From an uncultured Porphyromonadaceae bacterium (GTDB lineage: Bacteria; Bacteroidota; Bacteroidia; Bacteroidales; Muribaculaceae), in NCBI GenBank assembly GCA_946187345.1, contig CAMHQD010000003.1, positions 1-64,000 of the forward strand: DNA of 64,000 nucleotides, read 5' to 3'. A model generated the notes under the pieces. It was not told the origin of the DNA and did no database searches. It saw only the letters and a list, made by a program, of their open reading frames with translations. The first letter of the stretch is position 1; each line of letters starts with the position of its first letter. Shown in pieces: positions 1,720 through 55,896 of the stretch. Made by a program: the position numbers and the translations under genes.

Positions 1720-1857
1720 GTTGAGCGTTGAGGGTTGAGAGGTTGAGCCAATCGCGATAGCGATTGGGAATAAATGTAAGGTCTGGCCGTTCCTGAGACA
1801 AATCAATTATCCCCGAGCGCGATAGTGCAAGGCTCAACCCCTCAACTCTCAACCTCT
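1720..1857 (+). repeat. Dispersed GTTGAG-type element, copy 1 (forward)
   Basis: GTTGAGC/GTTGAGG/GTTGAGA array, hairpin CCAATCGC-GATA-GCGATTGG, core GGGAATAAATGTAAGGTCTG, inverted CTCAAC array; homologous to the reverse complement of 31007-31197. Confidence 0.8.
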
Positions 1858-4133: not shown

Positions 4134-4201
4134 TTGTCCTCTCCCGCCCTCTCCTTTAGGAGGGGTGTGGTAAAGGCGACTAACGTTTAATACTAACGAC
4201 T

Positions 4202-12508: not shown

Positions 12509-12585
12509 TAGTATACTTCCCTATAGCAACAGCAAGCCCCCCTCCTTTAGGAGGGGTGGGGGGGAGGCCAATCTTAACAACCGCA

Positions 12586-18289: not shown

Positions 18290-18360
18290 GTCGTTTGTTG
18301 TTAGTCGTTAATCGTTAGTTTTTGGGTGCAGCCACAAGGAGGCTGCACACGGGACGCGTC
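18290..18360 (-). repeat. TTAGTCG-heptad / CAGCCAC-hairpin element
   Basis: GTCGTTT GTTGTTA GTCGTTA ATCGTTA GTTTTTG (five 7-mers) then GCAGCC-hairpin and CACACGGGACG. Confidence 0.8.
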
Positions 18361-20469: not shown

Positions 20470-20560
20470 GTAGATGTTAGATGTTAGATGGCAGCCACGG
20501 GGTGGCTGCAAACGGTCGTTAGTGGGCGTGGCGGTGTCCGCCCACCTTTAACGTTAGATG
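20470..20560. repeat. TAGATG-heptad / CAGCCAC-hairpin element
   Basis: TAGATGT TAGATGT TAGATGG, hairpin GCAGCCAC-GGG-GTGGCTGC, hairpin GTGGGCG...CGCCCAC. Confidence 0.75.
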
Positions 20561-22837: not shown

Positions 22838-22900
22838 AATTATTATAAGGTTTCTTAGGAATTTATCTCACCCTCCTTCAGGAGGGGTGGGGGAGAACAA

Positions 22901-25621
22901 TCACAGATGCTTGCCGGTAACGATGCCCTTGATGCTGTTGAGTTTGTTGAGAGCCTCGATCGGCGTGAGGTTGTTCACGTCGAGGTTGATAATCTCGTCG
23001 CGGATTTGTTCCAGCACAGGGTCGTCGAGTTGGAACAGCGAGAGTTGGTAGCCGCTGCGGTGGGTGGCCACGTCGGCCAGATCTCGCGTGACGGTCACCT
23101 TGCCGCCCTCGCCACGGCTGGCCTGTTGCTCAAGTTGCTTGAGCACCTCGCCGGCGCGCGCCACAATGCTGGGCGGCATACCGGCCAACTTGGCCACGTG
23201 GATACCGAAACTGTGCTCGCTGCCGCCCTTGGCCAGAGTGCGCACAAACACCACCCGTCCGTCAATCTCCTTGACCTGCACGTTGTAGTTGACGATGCGC
23301 TTGAACGACTTCTCCATCTCGTTCAATTCGTGGTAGTGGGTGGCAAAGAGCGTCTTGGGGCGGCAGGGGTGCTCATGGATATACTCCACGATGGCCCACG
23401 CGATGGAGATGCCGTCATAGGTGCTCGTGCCGCGTCCCAATTCGTCGAAGAGCACAAGGCTGCGGTCGCTCAGGTTGTTGAGAATTGAGGCGGCCTCGGT
23501 CATCTCGACCATAAACGTGCTCTCGCCCAATGAGATGTTGTCGCTGGCGCCCACGCGGGTGAAGATTTTGTCGACGATGCCTACTTCGGCCTTTTCGGCC
23601 GGCACAAAGCAGCCAATCTGCGCCATGAGCGTGATTAGCGCCGTTTGGCGCAGCAGAGCCGACTTACCGGCCATATTCGGGCCGGTGATAATCATCACCT
23701 GCTGCCGCTCGCTGTCGAGGCTGATGTCGTTGGGCACATACCGCTCGCCCGGCGGCAACTGGCACTCGATGACGGGGTGGCGGCCGGCGGTGATAACGAG
23801 CCCGGTGCCATCGTTCAGCGTGGGGCGGTTGTAGCGGTTGTCGAGCGACACGCGCGTGAACGATAGCAGGCAGTCGAGTTGCGCCAGCACGTTGCAGTCG
23901 ACCTGAATGGCGGGGATATACTCGGTGGCGGCGGCCACTAATGAGGCAAAGAGTTGACCCTCGATGATGAGGATGCGCTCCTCGGCACCGAGGATTTTCT
24001 CCTCAAGCGATTTGAGTTCGGCGGTGATATACCGCTCGGCGTTGACCAGCGTCTGCTTGCGGGTCCAGTCGGCCGGCACCTTGTCACGGTGGGTGTTGCG
24101 CACCTCGATATAGTAGCCAAACACGTTGTTATAGGCGATTTTGAGGCTGGGAATACCCGTCTGCTCGCTCAAGTCGCGTTGCATCTGCATGAGCACGTCC
24201 TTGCTCGAGAATGCGATGTGCCGCAGTTCGTCGAGCGTCTGGTCCACACCGTCGCGGATCACATTACCGCGGTTCACCATATTCGGCGCGTCGGGGTTGA
24301 CCTCGCGCTCGATGCGGTCGCTGAGCAGGCGGCACTCGTTCAGGCGGTCGCCCATGGCCTGCAGCACGGTGCTCGACGAGTCGTCACACATTGCCTTGAC
24401 GGGCTCCACGGCGCGCAGGGCGGCGCGCAACTGCAGCATCTCGCGCGGCGTGACGCGTGCCGTCGACACGCGCGAGGCCAGTCGCTCCACGTCGCCGATA
24501 ACCTCAAGTTGCTTGACGAGCACGTCGCGGGCGGCATTGTCGCGCATAAACTGCTCCACGACCTCCAGGCGATTGTCGATGGCGTCGCGCTCCTTGAGCG
24601 GGAAGAGCAGCCACCGGTGCATCATGCGGGCTCCCATGGGGGTGAGAGTGCGGTCAAGCACGTCTAAAAGCGACTTGCCGTCGTCGCTCATAGGCTTGAT
24701 TAACTCCAGATTGCGCACGGTGAAGCGGTCCAGACGCACGTAGCGGTCGGCCTCGATGCGCGACAGCGTCGTGATGTGGGCCAACTGGGTGTGCTGCGTG
24801 AGGTCAAGATACTGCATTATCACGCCCGCGGCGACGATGGCCAGGTCCATATCCTCGACTCCGAAGCCTTTGAGCGACTGCGTCTCGAAGTGCCGCAGCA
24901 GCCTCTCTCGCGCCGTTGTCTCGACAAAGGCCCAGTCGTCCAGTTCCTGGGTGAGATATTGGTTGCCGAAGGTCTCGACAAACTGTCGCCGTGTGGAGCG
25001 CTCGATGAGCACCTCCTTGGGCGCGAAGTTCTCTAATAGTTTGCCCACATACTCGCGCGTGCCCTCGGCGGCGAGAAACTCGCCGGTGCTGATGTCCAGC
25101 AGCGACAACCCAACGCGGTTGAGGCCGTTGACGGTTGACGGTTGACCGTTGGCCGTTGGTGAAAAGTTGACCGTTGACGGTTGACGGTTGACCGAAGAGA
25201 GGGAAGAGGGAGTGCTGCGCCTGGCCGGATGGACTGCGGCCAGGAAATTGTTCTCCTTGCGGTCGAGGATCGGGCCGCCCACCACCACGCCGGGGGTGAC
25301 AAGTTCGGTGATGCCTCGCTTGACGAGTTTCTTGGTGAGTTTGGGGTCTTCGAGTTGGTCACAGATGGCCACGCGCTTGCCGGCGCGCACCAGTCGCGGC
25401 AGATATGTGTCGAGGGCGTGATGAGGGAAGCCGGCCATCTCGGTGTTGCCCGAGGCGCCGTTGCTGCGGCGTGTGAGTGTGATGCCGAGTATCTCGGCGG
25501 CGACAACCGCGTCGGCGGCATAGGTCTCATAGAAGTCGCCCACGCGAAAGAGAAGCACCGCGTCGGGGTGCTTCGCCTTTATCTGGTTGAACTGCCGCAT
25601 CATCGGCGTTTCATCGGCCAT
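22901..25621 (-). CDS. mutS: DNA mismatch repair ATPase MutS, with low-complexity insert
   Basis: [65 protein letters not shown]. Confidence 0.98.
25125..25194. repeat. GTTGACN heptad array within mutS
   Basis: GTTGACG GTTGACG GTTGACC GTTGGCC GTTGGTG AAAA GTTGACC GTTGACG GTTGACG GTTGACC; reads [11 protein letters not shown]...GQPSTVNG in MutS. Confidence 0.88.
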
Positions 25622-31006: not shown

Positions 31007-31197
31007 GTTGAGAGGTTGAGGGTTGAGGGGTTGAGCCTCGCGCTGGCGCACTCGGGGAGATTAGTTCTGTTGCTATTTGCGGTCACGCTGTAGGGACGAG
31101 GCTTGCCTCGTCCTTTGTCAGACCATACATTTATTCCCATTTGCGTCAGCAAATGGCTCAACCCCTCAACGATCAACCCCTCAACCATTAAACCCCT
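31007..31197 (-). repeat. Dispersed GTTGAG-type element, copy 2 (reverse)
   Basis: Reverse complement contains GGTTGAGCC, CCATTTGC-TGAC-GCAAATGG, GGGAATAAATGTATGGTCTG, CCCCGAG-GCG...AGGCTCAACCCCTCAA. Confidence 0.8.
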
Positions 31198-31204
31198 AAT
31201 CCGG

Positions 31205-32527
31205 TTAGAGGCGAGCCTGAATGGCGCGCGTGGCCTCCTCATAGCCCGGCTTTCCCAGCAGGGCAAACATATTCTTCTTGTAGGCCTCCACACCCGGCTG
31301 GTTGAACGGGTTCACGCCAAGCATATATCCGCTGATGCCGCAAGCCTTCTCAAAGAAGTAAATCAGTTGGCCGATGTAACGCTCCTTGAGGGCGGGCAGC
31401 GAAATGACGATATTGGGCACGCCGCCGTCCACATGGGCGATGCGAGTGCCTAATTCGGCCATTTTGTTCACTTGGTCAACACGCTTGCCGGCGATATAGT
31501 TCAGCCCGTCAAGGTCGTCGTCATCGCTGGGGATGACAACGGTAGCGGCCTGCTCGCCCACGGTGATGACGGTCTCAAAGATGGTGCGCTCACCGTCTTG
31601 AATCCACTGTCCCATGGAGTGCAGGTCGGTGGTGAAGTCAACGCTGGCCGGGAAGATTCCCTTGCCGTCCTTGCCCTCGCTCTCGCCGTAGAGTTGTTTC
31701 CACCACTCGGCCAGATTGTGCAGGCGCGGGCAGAAGTTGGCCAGAATCTCCACCTTCTTGCCTGCCTGATAAAGGGCGTTGCGCGTCTGGGCGTAGCAGA
31801 GCATCGGCTCGTCGTCGCCCTGCTCGATGTCGACAGCGCCGGCCACCAGTTCGGCGATGTCAAAGCCGGCCACGGCGATGGGCAGCAAGCCCACCGGGGT
31901 GAGCACGCTGAAGCGGCCGCCCACGTTGTCGGGGATGACATAGGTGGTATAGCCCTCCTGGGTGGCCAAACCACGCAGCGCGCCACGCGCCGCGTCGGTA
32001 ATGGCGATGATGTGGCCGGAGGCAAACTTGCGTCCCTGTTGACGCTCGAGTTGCTCCTTGAGCAGACGGAAAGCGATGGCCGGCTCAGTGGTGGTGCCGC
32101 TCTTGCTGATGACGATGATGCCAAACGGGTGGCCGTCCACCAAGTCCATCAACTCATGGATATAGTCCTCACCGATGTTGTTGCCGGCAAAGAGCACCTT
32201 CGGTCCTTCGATTTTCTTGTAGGCGGCAAACGAGTCGCTGAGCGCGTCGATGACAGCCTTGGCGCCGAGATAACTGCCGCCGATACCGATGGCCACCACA
32301 TACTCGCAGTCGCGTCGCAACTTGTCGGCCGTAGCCTGGATGTCATTGAGTTCGCCCTTGCTGATGCTTGAGGGCAGGTGAAGCCAACCGAGGAAGTCGT
32401 TGCCGGCACCATTGCCGTTGTCGAGGGTTGCGGCGGCGTCGAGGGCTTGTTGGCGCAGGGCATCGACGTCGGCCTTGCTGATGGCACCGCCCAGGGCGGC
32501 GCTGTTGTTGATGGAGATTGTTGCCAT
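31205..32527 (-). CDS. pgi: Glucose-6-phosphate isomerase
   Basis: [64 protein letters not shown]. Confidence 0.96.
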
Positions 32528-32563
32528 ATTAGTTCGTTTTATGTGTTCTTTTATTTCAACCTG

Positions 32564-32571
32564 CAAAATTA
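32564..32571 (-). promoter_or_regulatory. -7 element TAATTTTG (minus) upstream of pgi
   Basis: caaaatta on + strand, 37 nt upstream of pgi ATG. Confidence 0.6.
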
Positions 32572-32624
32572 GTAAAAAAGTGCGAAATGAGTGGCCTTTT
32601 GAAAGAGTTTTCAAATCGGTCGCG

Positions 32625-37233: not shown

Positions 37234-37316
37234 GTCGTTTTGTCGTTAGTTGATAGTCGTTAGTTGAGGGGGACAGCCACAATGTGGCCGCACACCGGAC
37301 GCGTTGAGGACGGGAA
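37234..37316 (-). repeat. TTAGTCG-heptad / CAGCCAC-hairpin element
   Basis: GTCGTTA GTTGATA GTCGTTA GTTGAGG then ACAGCCACAATGTGGCCGCACACCGGACGCGT; aligns with 18290-18360. Confidence 0.8.
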
Positions 37317-44533: not shown

Positions 44534-45772
44534 ATGAAAAACGAAATGAAAGCGGAGTTTGTCGATAGCATACGGCGGTTGCTGCCGGTGGACGACGCGG
44601 CGGCGTTGCTCGATGCGCTTGCCGAAGGCGAGCCCACGGTGAGCGTGCGCGTCAACACGGCGCGCGGCGCCACTGTGCCCGACGGTGTCACGCGTGTGCC
44701 GTGGTGCCCCGAGGGCTACTATATCGACGGCGAGCGCCCGCAGTTCACTTTCGACCCGCTTTGGCACAGCGGCATGTACTATGTGCAGGATGCCTCGTCG
44801 ATGTTCATCTCCCACGTCATCCGGCAAGTTGTCGACAGGCCGGTGAACTACCTCGACCTCTGCGCCGCGCCGGGCGGCAAGGCTACCGCCGCACTGCAGG
44901 CACTGCCCGCGGGCTCACAAGTCGTGGCCAACGAGGTAGTGCCGCAGCGCGCTCTCGCCCTCAGCGACAATGTCACGCGCTGGGGCGCGCCGGGCGCGAC
45001 GGTCACGCGCGAGCAGCCTCGCGCCTTCGGCCGGATGGCAAACACGTTTGACGTCATCGCCACCGACGTGCCGTGCAGCGGCGAGGGCATGATGCGCAAG
45101 GACGACCAGGCCGTCGACCAATGGTCGCCGGTACTCGTCAAGCAATGCGCCGACACGCAGCGGCAAATCCTGCGCGACGTGTGGCCGGCCCTCAAGCCAG
45201 GCGGATTGCTCATTTACAGCACTTGCACCTTCAACCGCGAGGAGAATGAACTCATGCTCGACTACATCGCCGGCGAACTCGGTGCCGAGAGTGTCGCCGT
45301 GCCAATCGACCCGGCGTGGAATATTGCGCCCGGTATAGATACAGACCGCCCCTGCTACCGTTTCATGCCACACCGCACTCGCGGCGAAGGTCTCTTCATG
45401 GCCGTGCTGCGCAAAGCCCCCTCCTTTAGGAGAGGGATGGTGGAGGCCAGAAGTAAAGCCCCCTCCTTTAGGAAGGGGGTGGGGGAGGTCACTACACGTC
45501 GCCCCGACCCGGCGTTAGCCTATAGCCTCACCGCCGACCGCAACGCCTGGCCACCGGCCGATGTGGACTATCCAACCGCTATCGCCTACCTGCGCGGCGA
45601 AGCCCTCATCCTGCCGCCCGATGTGCCACGCGGCATCGTGCTCGTCACCTATCGCGGTGCCCCACTCGGCTTTGCCAATAACATCGGCTCTCGCGCCAAC
45701 AATCTTTACCCCAAGCCCTGGCGCATCACCGGCAGCCACGCGCCGGCCGCCGCTCCCCGCGTCATCGACTGA
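44534..45772 (+). CDS. RsmF-like rRNA cytosine-C5 methyltransferase
   Basis: YVQDASSMF, LDLCAAPGGKATA, DVPCSGEGMMRKDDQAV, YSTCTFNREENE. Confidence 0.94.
   Translation: MKNEMKAEFVDSIRRLLPVDDAAALLDALAEGEPTVSVRVNTARGATVPDGVTRVPWCPEGYYIDGERPQFTFDPLWHSGMYYVQDASSMFISHVIRQVVDRPVNYLDLCAAPGGKATAALQALPAGSQVVANEVVPQRALALSDNVTRWGAPGATVTREQPRAFGRMANTFDVIATDVPCSGEGMMRKDDQAVDQWSPVLVKQCADTQRQILRDVWPALKPGGLLIYSTCTFNREENELMLDYIAGELGAESVAVPIDPAWNIAPGIDTDRPCYRFMPHRTRGEGLFMAVLRKAPSFRRGMVEARSKAPSFRKGVGEVTTRRPDPALAYSLTADRNAWPPADVDYPTAIAYLRGEALILPPDVPRGIVLVTYRGAPLGFANNIGSRANNLYPKPWRITGSHAPAAAPRVID
45413..45490 (+). repeat. Two 42-bp units of the CCCTCCTTTAGGAGGG element inside the methylase CDS
   Basis: AAAGCCCCCTCCTTTAGGA... 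at 45413 and 45455; translated KAPSFRRGMVEARSKAPSFRKGVGEV. Confidence 0.9.
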
Positions 45773-50535: not shown

Positions 50536-50590
50536 TTCGGTGTGCAGCCACCTCGTGGTTGCCCTCTATCGACTAACGACTGACGACTAT
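50536..50590 (-). repeat. TTAGTCG-heptad / CAGCCAC-hairpin element (reverse)
   Basis: CGACTAA CGACTGA CGACTAT 7-mers; reverse complement GCAACCAC-GAG-GTGGCTGCACACCGAACG. Confidence 0.8.
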
Positions 50591-53410: not shown

Positions 53411-53485
53411 CGTTGAGATGTTGAGCCATTTGCGATAGCAAATGGCTCAACGCTCAACCTCTCAACTTCTCAACCCCTCAAAGCA
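53411..53485. repeat. GTTGAG-type element, short form
   Basis: Perfect hairpin GTTGAGCCATTTGC-GATA-GCAAATGGCTCAAC (53420-53451) followed by CTCAAC units at 7-8 nt spacing. Confidence 0.85.
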
Positions 53486-54581: not shown

Positions 54582-55847
54582 TTAATTGCGCAGCGAGACT
54601 TCGATTGAAGCCACGGGAGTGGCGCCGCCCGGATGGAAAGCGTTGTAGATGCCTCGCAATAGTGGCTCCAATCCCATTGTGGTGTCGGCAAAGTCAGGTC
54701 GTGCCGCGTTGTCGTCGGCTCGTGTCGATGACGCGCTGACCCATTGCGGCAGCACATCGGGCAGTGTCACCGAGATGTGGTCAGCGCCCGTGGCGCAGGC
54801 GCCGCTGAGTGTGAGCAGGTGGGTGCGCCCCTCAAGGTATCGGCGGTTGTTGCCGGTGATGATGTCATCGGTGATGGGCGCGATGCTCAGTTTGAACCCG
54901 CCCATTGATTTCACCTCATAGTTTGTCGAGTCGAGCAGCGCCGCGCTGTCGAGGCCTGTGTGGCTCAAGTCGGCGGCCACGGTGAACGTCAGCCGTCCGG
55001 TCTCGTCATCTGCGCCGCAGCCCGTGAGGGCGAGTTCGTCGCCGCGGGCGATGCGCCATCGTCCGGCGTTGCTCTCGTGGCGCGGCATTATTGCCGCGTT
55101 GGTCGCGACTGTGCCGCGGTTGAAACGGTAGGTCGCTATCGCGCGCTCTGGCGACAGCAGCGCTGTCGCGGCCGCGTCGCCGGCTGCCTCGATGGCCGCC
55201 AGAGTGCCGCGTCGGGCAATCACCATGATATAGAATGGCCGTTGGCCGCGATAGTCAAACGCTCCACCCATGGCGGGGTAGTATCGTCCGTGATAGTCAC
55301 CCGTCATCTTGTGCACAACCACGTCAAGGTCGGCGTGGCCGTTGAAGGCGGCGTGGGTCACGCCGGTCGCCTCGTTAAAGAGTTTGTCGAGGCTTAATCC
55401 GTCGGTGCCTCGCGGCGAGTAAATCAAGTCGCTCACCAGCACGCTCACGTGGCCGGGGCGCAGTCTGTCAAGCAGTGTGTTGAAGATGAGTTGGAAGTCG
55501 GTGTAGGCCGCGTTGCCCACGCCGGCCGTGCTGCCGTAGATGTCGCGGTCTTGCAGAAACGATGCGATGGTGCCGCCATAGGGCCACACACTGTCGTTCA
55601 CAATCGAGATTGTCACCGAGTCGGCGTTCGGCGCCGCGTTGATAATCTCGTTGACTGTCGCCTTGAGTTGTCCACCGCCATCCGGTGTGTCGTAGGCCAC
55701 CATCGAGCCGCTGCGCTCAAGGTAAATATCCACGGCGGTGAAAGCGGCGCTATCCTCCGGGGCTGCCACATCGGCACCACGGTTGTGGCGGTGTCCGCCA
55801 CAACCGGCCAATAACAGCAATGCCGCCGCTAAGCAAATCTGTCTCAT
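54582..55847 (-). CDS. Lipoprotein with vWA-like N-terminal domain
   Basis: Lipobox LLLLAGC; VDIYLERSGSMVAYD MIDAS-like motif; HVSVLVSDLIYSPRG. Confidence 0.65.
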   Translation of the reverse strand: MRQICLAAALLLLAGCGGHRHNRGADVAAPEDSAAFTAVDIYLERSGSMVAYDTPDGGGQLKATVNEIINAAPNADSVTISIVNDSVWPYGGTIASFLQDRDIYGSTAGVGNAAYTDFQLIFNTLLDRLRPGHVSVLVSDLIYSPRGTDGLSLDKLFNEATGVTHAAFNGHADLDVVVHKMTGDYHGRYYPAMGGAFDYRGQRPFYIMVIARRGTLAAIEAAGDAAATALLSPERAIATYRFNRGTVATNAAIMPRHESNAGRWRIARGDELALTGCGADDETGRLTFTVAADLSHTGLDSAALLDSTNYEVKSMGGFKLSIAPITDDIITGNNRRYLEGRTHLLTLSGACATGADHISVTLPDVLPQWVSASSTRADDNAARPDFADTTMGLEPLLRGIYNAFHPGGATPVASIEVSLRN

Positions 55848-55896
55848 CTTTTTTAACGTTTAGCGTTGAGGGGTTGAGCCTCTCAACTCTCAACTC

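Follow-up and report, generated by a model that had tools for sequence, protein, structure and literature searches.

REPINs and BIMEs are inverted doublets of REP sequences that are mobilised by RAYT (TnpA_REP) transposases (Bertels and Rainey 2011, PMC3116915), and in their simplest form, of about 70 bp, they consist of a pair of inverted hairpins separated by a spacer. GTAG-REPs, in which GTAG is followed by a palindrome, have been recorded for Proteobacteria, Cyanobacteria, Chloroflexi and the PVC group, Bacteroidetes not being named (Di Nocera et al. 2013, PMC3733652). Subclasses 1.2 and 2.6 of the TnpA_Y1 proteins are known from Bacteroidetes, and subclass 1.2 generally goes without terminal structures and REPs (PMC6006769). 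Short tandem arrays of another kind, TAACTGA and other intergenic heptamer direct repeats, lie near start and stop codons and occur also in Bacteroidetes, with relatives that have shorter gaps (MacGregor 2015, PMC4679880).

Here we analyse a palindromic element tipped by GTTGAG arrays, of which two copies lie in the window, a stretch of 64,000 nucleotides from the genome of an uncultured Porphyromonadaceae bacterium (Muribaculaceae in GTDB). Like REPINs and BIMEs (PMC3116915), it is built on a pair of inverted hairpins with a spacer, has many dispersed intergenic copies with compensatory changes and no ORF, and resides in a genome with Y1 genes. It differs from them in that its two hairpins follow GTTGAG and have no GTAG (or GT[AG]G) foot, GTAG being found only at REPs nested inside it, in that it is tipped by inverted GTTGAG/CTCAAC arrays, and in that no cognate flanked RAYT was found. 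The element therefore behaves most like a REPIN or a Y1 MITE, yet we do not class it as a REPIN, because it has no GTAG foot and no cognate flanked transposase was found in the 94.6% complete assembly. The nested units do resemble GTAG-REPs (PMC3733652), since GTAG is followed by a palindrome (of the GGCCTGGCC, GGACGAGG and GGGCAGAAT types) and they stand alone or as inverted pairs, but here they are passengers within a larger element. The arrays share with the heptamers of MacGregor (PMC4679880) a tandem unit of the 7-nt class placed near start and stop codons; those, however, are simple direct repeats, whereas here facing arrays bracket a conserved hairpin element.

Architecture of the element

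A sequence-only reading had described an ordered structure common to 1720-1857 (+) and 31007-31197 (-), and the order of parts that it gave is indeed seen in both (Table 1). Every copy of the family opens with a (GTTGAG)n array, continues with hairpin 1, an A/T linker and hairpin 2, and closes with a (CTCAAC)n array. A glutathione-peroxidase-like gene (1099-1713) precedes copy 1, whose left array begins 6 nt past the stop codon of that gene and whose right array ends about 16 nt short of the next ATG (1874), and the left array of copy 2 directly follows a glucose-6-phosphate-isomerase-like gene (31205-32614, -). The two were said to be in opposite orientation, which is correct by strand, but relative to the flanking genes both have the same orientation to transcription. 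The window also holds two relatives, a reduced one with a single hairpin and co-directional genes on either side, and one with arrays only.

Table 1. Parts of the two window copies and of their relatives
Feature	Position	Strand	Basis
Copy 1 left array, GTTGAG units spaced 1-2 nt	1720..1747	+	sequence
Copy 1 hairpin 1, CCAATCGC GATA GCGATTGG	1748..1767	+	sequence; helix covarying in 32 copies
Copy 1 A/T-rich linker, GAATAAATGTA	1768..1778	+	sequence, alignment
Copy 1 nested degenerate GTAG-type REP unit (GTAAGGTCTGGCC...), missing from 69-bp class	1776..1806	+	size ladder; free-standing TGTAGGGCCTGGCC units
Copy 1 hairpin 2, CCCCGAGCGC GATA GTGCAAGG, tandem G-A mismatches breaking the stem	1811..1832	+	sequence, alignment, covariation
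Copy 1 right array, CTCAAC units complementary to left array	1833..1857	+	sequence, fold
Copy 2 left array, GTTGAG units	31157..31192	-	sequence
Copy 2 hairpin 1, CCATTTGC TGAC GCAAATGG	31137..31156	-	sequence
Copy 2 nested REP, GTAG-GGACGAGGCTTGCCTCGTCC, on strand opposite to element	31090..31113	+	recurs in copies at L080, L093, L079
Copy 2 hairpin 2, CCCCGAGTGC GCCA GCGCGAGG	31037..31057	-	sequence
Copy 2 right array, CTCAAC units	31007..31036	-	sequence, fold
One-hairpin reduced relative: GTTGAG array, CCATTTGC GATA GCAAATGG, CTCAAC array	53411..53475	+	sequence
Array-only relative, GTTGAG units facing CTCAAC units, no hairpin	55847..55896	.	

Three versions of hairpin 1 exist (CCATTTGC, CCAATCGC and CCATTCGC), with loops that are mostly TNNC; for hairpin 2 the usual form is CCGAGCGC(GNNA)GCGCGAGG, which has two tandem G-A mismatches, and CCAATCGC...GCGATTGG is found sometimes. 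As single-stranded DNA both window copies fold far better than shuffled sequences, with z values of -6.5 for copy 1 and -7.8 for copy 2, and the predicted fold is one long hairpin in which the GTTGAG units pair with the CTCAAC units and the inner hairpins protrude as side arms. The hairpin arms had been seen to covary between the two copies (CCAATCGC/GCGATTGG versus CCATTTGC/GCAAATGG), and this holds across the family: in 32 aligned copies, 8 of the 26 pairs show two-sided changes, against a shuffle mean of 3.8 and with none of 500 shuffles reaching 8. Standard pairs fill 91.6% of the pair cells of this alignment, and pairing drops to 21-43% when the structure is slid by 1-3 columns.

Nested REPs and the ladder of sizes

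Measured between the inner GTTGAG and CTCAAC units, the copies fall into classes of about 69, 96-98, 107-110 and 131-133 bp (a ladder of 69, 97, 109 and 132). In the 51 extracted elements, the 69-bp class consists of hairpin 1, a GGGAAGAAATGTATTATTACC linker and hairpin 2, that is, two inverted palindromes with a short spacer, in many intergenic copies; the larger classes are this 69-bp element plus inserted GTAG-tagged REP palindromes. In the 97- and 109-bp classes the linker is occupied by a REP unit, TGTAGGGCCTGGCC(TTGGCCTGGCC)G. In window copy 2 and in others this unit itself contains a second one, GTAG-GGACGAGGCTTGCCTCGTCC, and a third, TTGTAGGGGCAGAATTTATTCTGCCC, lies inside hairpin 2 of a few copies. 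All of them have the form of a GTAG-REP, namely GTAG followed by a stem-loop of 6-13 bp, and are dispersed. Beyond the extracted elements, 1.6 Mb of the genome contains TGTAG[AG]GCCT units at 34 further places, of which about 30 are truly on their own, two or three belonging to truncated or complex element copies and a few apparently lying inside genes. The third unit is also found free, alone or as REPIN-like inverted pairs (L063:6408, L064:4434, L077:16704, L080:5181, L080:5320 and L080:9656).

What had been taken for a conserved internal core thus marks the place where the linker meets an inserted REP that is dispersed independently, and is not a functional core, because the REP unit sits in the linker of the larger classes and also occurs free. 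The internal palindrome noticed in copy 2 (GGACGAGG...CCTCGTCC) is present but is not peculiar to it, since other copies share this nested GTAG-REP. Since some two dozen copies or more have the REP at one and the same position, a single insertion followed by copying of the composite seems more likely to us than many independent insertions.

The window carries other repeats besides. A separate dispersed palindrome family, CCCCTCCTTTAGGAGGGG, occupies intergenic positions 4140-4179, 12531-12570, 22862-22901 and 45410-45491, with 38 simple stem matches in 1.6 Mb. Arrays of the GTTAGT and TAGATGT types joined to a GCAGCCAC...GTGGCTGC hairpin, at 18294-18359, 20476-20513, 37239-37304 and 50540-50577, possibly form a second array-plus-hairpin family.

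Copy number, host range and position

The core GGGAATAAATGTANGGTCTG, of 20 bases, has exactly two matches in the window, and 100 dinucleotide shuffles, with up to 3 mismatches allowed, give an expectation of none. Within the window there are thus two copies, as had been said, but a covariance model finds 67 matches in the window's genome, the window copies belonging to the same family; both chance and a simple two-copy reading are therefore rejected. A search for the core pattern at up to 3 mismatches gave 38 cores in this genome (2.79 Mb in 131 contigs, 94.6% complete), and the 51 extracted elements come from about 1.6 Mb of it, except for a few among them that lie in smaller loci beyond that set. 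When 297 genomes of the taxonomic family were scanned for the hairpin pattern, 60 copies were found in the window's genome, 69 in the congeneric genome G336, that of a sister species, and none in the remaining 295. The covariance model likewise gave no convincing match among 36 other congeneric genomes. Two weak matches outside the lineage were set aside, one (L120, in genome G001) being a different palindrome cluster and the other (L121, in G050) coding-like. In the former, at L120:1500-1700, alternating hairpins are clustered together with A/T-rich linkers, in a sequence unrelated to the GTTGAG element, and G001 may own a separate family. Copy 1 was matched in neither phage nor plasmid collections, and an origin from either was rejected on this basis.

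Gene pairs, called by a simple codon-usage script, are co-directional around 41 of 46 copies, against 886 of 1093 in the background. Thirty of 41 copies have one orientation relative to transcription, and the arrays typically start a few nucleotides past a stop codon. This bias may have arisen because harmful insertions, or one of the strands, were selected against, or because the enzyme has a preference of its own, and the data do not separate these.

Occupied and empty sites in related genomes

The orthologous gaps of four sites were read in up to 29 congeners. Between nuoK and nuoL, where the gap is about 150 bp with the element here, the element is absent from all 29, and 28 of them have a gap of about 5 bp (e.g. 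CGATT before ATG). The murD-ftsW, rplY-pth and pth-hsp15 sites of relatives are also without the element. The pth-hsp15 gap of relatives often has unrelated TTTAG arrays or hairpins, and in many congeners (L220-L228, L231, L232 and L235) it contains differing heptamer arrays and hairpins, as if refilled repeatedly.

In G336, where occupancy was deduced by using the joined flanks, with the element removed, as query and reading the insert length from the match coordinates, 19 of 22 testable sites hold an insert of similar size; window copy 2, whose flanks lie on different G336 contigs, is outside these 22. Insert lengths here and in G336 are 142 and 140 bp at window copy 1, 93 and 116 at nuoK-nuoL, 160 and 219 at murD-ftsW, and 154 and 154 at gldM-gldN, and the flanks of occupied sites are mostly 83-100% identical. 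One site is cleanly empty (L070:16421; G336:C48:34460-34674, a single match with 215 bp of subject for a 231-bp query), and two are shortened, to about 29 bp at rplY-pth and about 58 bp at L101:6110.

Past mobility is well supported, because about 5 bp separate nuoK from nuoL in 28 of 29 congeners and because one G336 site is cleanly empty and two are shortened. From the 19 occupied sites of 22 it follows that most copies predate the split of the window's species and G336, with gain or loss since, and recent movement is not shown, since most sites are common to both genomes. The search of this genome and its relatives and the look for empty sites, which the sequence-only reading had proposed, both bore fruit, and the outcome that would have spoken against it, two copies with no empty alleles, is not what we found, even if most sites are shared with G336.

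Y1 transposases of the genome

A profile search with PF01797 found seven Y1 genes of full length in the window's genome, besides two weak matches, and Y1 genes are present in most congeners. The proteins here, of about 150 aa and with the motif Y-x-x-[NK]-Q-x-x-H-H, match the motif of subclass 1.2 (Y---Q--HH; PMC6006769), which they appear to resemble as judged from the motif. One of the genes, that of contig C120, present in two copies (L035 and L036), has concentric-hairpin ends of about 125 bp on either side, in contrast to what is general for the subclass, and ORF-less copies accompany it. About a dozen other places have such ends as well, and at least two loci have both of them, back to back, but lack the gene; one of these gene-less copies, L115:7161-7427, begins directly past the gldN stop codon. 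Further ORF-less elements or single ends of this family lie at L089:342-598, L085:13837-13968, L094:15118-15241 and L053:6226-6349. The C120 family may thus be regarded as a precedent, within the same genome, for the mechanism proposed below.

Ends shared with a Y1-encoding element are found for the C120 family and not for the GTTGAG element: neither hairpin 1 nor hairpin 2 occurs at any of the 8 Y1 loci of the 94.6% complete assembly, and none of the Y1 ends in this genome is matched by the element. The Y1 gene at L035 abuts a CTCAAC array, but the adjacency may be chance, because the second copy is array-less; since its own derivatives moreover have other hairpins, it was rejected as the cognate enzyme. 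The Y1 genes that had been anticipated do exist, therefore, but none is flanked by the element's hairpins.

Discussion

In this work we describe a genuine family of non-autonomous, lineage-restricted, previously mobile palindromic elements with nested REPs, located in the gaps between genes. A non-autonomous MITE/REP-like element, as first proposed, is the best reading, because there are many dispersed copies with no ORF, compensatory changes that keep the structure, and empty sites in relatives; the partner transposase with the element's hairpins is the part of that proposal for which no counterpart was found. The element was gained at intergenic sites where relatives are without it, and we propose, with a confidence only somewhat better than even, that it is REPIN/MITE-like and was mobilised by a trans-acting IS200-like Y1 (HUH) transposase. 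The single strand of the element would fold into a long hairpin with side hairpins, which the Y1 enzyme, acting in trans, would cut and rejoin. Insertions that settled right after stop codons would survive, genes being left unbroken; the 69-bp element has hosted the insertion of smaller GTAG-tagged REPs, which gave rise to the 97-, 109- and 132-bp classes, and the composite copies may have multiplied as units in the common ancestor of the window's species and G336. We infer the partner enzyme, and mobilisation in trans appears to be the best mechanism, although its link to the GTTGAG element rests on analogy, because no Y1 locus has the element's hairpins. Inverted arrays, to our knowledge, are not a feature of IS200/IS605 ends, which counts against a Y1 enzyme.

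The ends of the element bear directly on the choice of enzyme. It is rather unlikely, in our view, that we are dealing with the MITE of a cut-and-paste (DDE) transposase whose terminal inverted repeats would be the GTTGAG arrays and whose autonomous partner, with terminal repeats that would match TGAAAGGTTGAG, has been lost or left unassembled. The element has inverted repeats at its termini and no ORF, GAAAG lies immediately beyond 17 of the 92 array ends, compared with 0.8% of background 14-mers, and the partner could be missing since the genome is 94.6% complete; against this, the ends are arrays of variable length and not a fixed terminal repeat, and internal hairpins are unusual for such MITEs. 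No target-site duplication was evident by eye in the outer flanks compared, where the array ends are ragged and variable in length, so that duplications could be overlooked or eroded; their apparent absence from the ends compared would fit the expectation for Y1 rather than for DDE enzymes. Hairpins, which a non-autonomous IS200/IS605 derivative should have near its ends, are present in the element. The position of the copies could suggest instead a structured intergenic RNA, spread via recombination and kept for a function such as mRNA stabilisation, processing or attenuation within operons. The co-directional neighbours, the prevalent orientation, the arrays starting just past stop codons and the compensatory changes would all agree with this idea, which we nevertheless hold to be improbable: the same operons of congeners do without the element (nuoK-nuoL in 29 of 29, and murD-ftsW), so there is no conserved role, the excess of co-direction is modest and comes from simple gene calls, and the location of the copies can be put down to the survival of harmless insertions. 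Moreover, a search of the window against Rfam gave only two tRNAs above the gathering score and left the element unmatched, so a known Rfam RNA was rejected, and an intrinsic terminator at copy 1 was rejected as well, since 1600-2000 contains no G+C-rich stem followed by a T run.

Still less credible is an origin in place, in which slippage would expand the arrays, palindromes would form and copies would convert one another without any transposition. TTTAG-type heptamer arrays are found across the genus, also at the pth-hsp15 site of relatives, and insert lengths vary between the sister species at shared sites, but slippage cannot produce one particular pair of hairpins with its linker at about 67 sites that are unrelated, and it is made unlikely by nuoK-nuoL, where the relatives have 5-bp empty sites without any starting array. 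Hairpins stand beside the arrays of relatives in only 3 of 18 cases, near background; a genus-wide habit of joining arrays to hairpins was accordingly rejected, arrays being common in congeners and adjoining hairpins not above background. Returning to mobilisation by a Y1 enzyme, one may speculate further, and at considerable risk of being wrong, that subclass 1.2 enzymes actively mobilise multi-hairpin miniature elements, of which the array-tipped GTTGAG element would be one product, with stepwise nesting of REP into REP and with the end arrays made during mobilisation. If this were true, an orphan subclass would gain a function, and the origin of some intergenic heptamer arrays would be explained.

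What does the family mean for its hosts? The element arose in one small lineage of the genus and came to lie in essential-gene operons (nuo, mur/fts, gld and rplY-pth), and the ladder of nested insertions records how it was built up. Together with the hairpin-ended C120 Y1 gene, it opens to testing the question of how REP-like elements and short intergenic arrays arose in Bacteroidetes.
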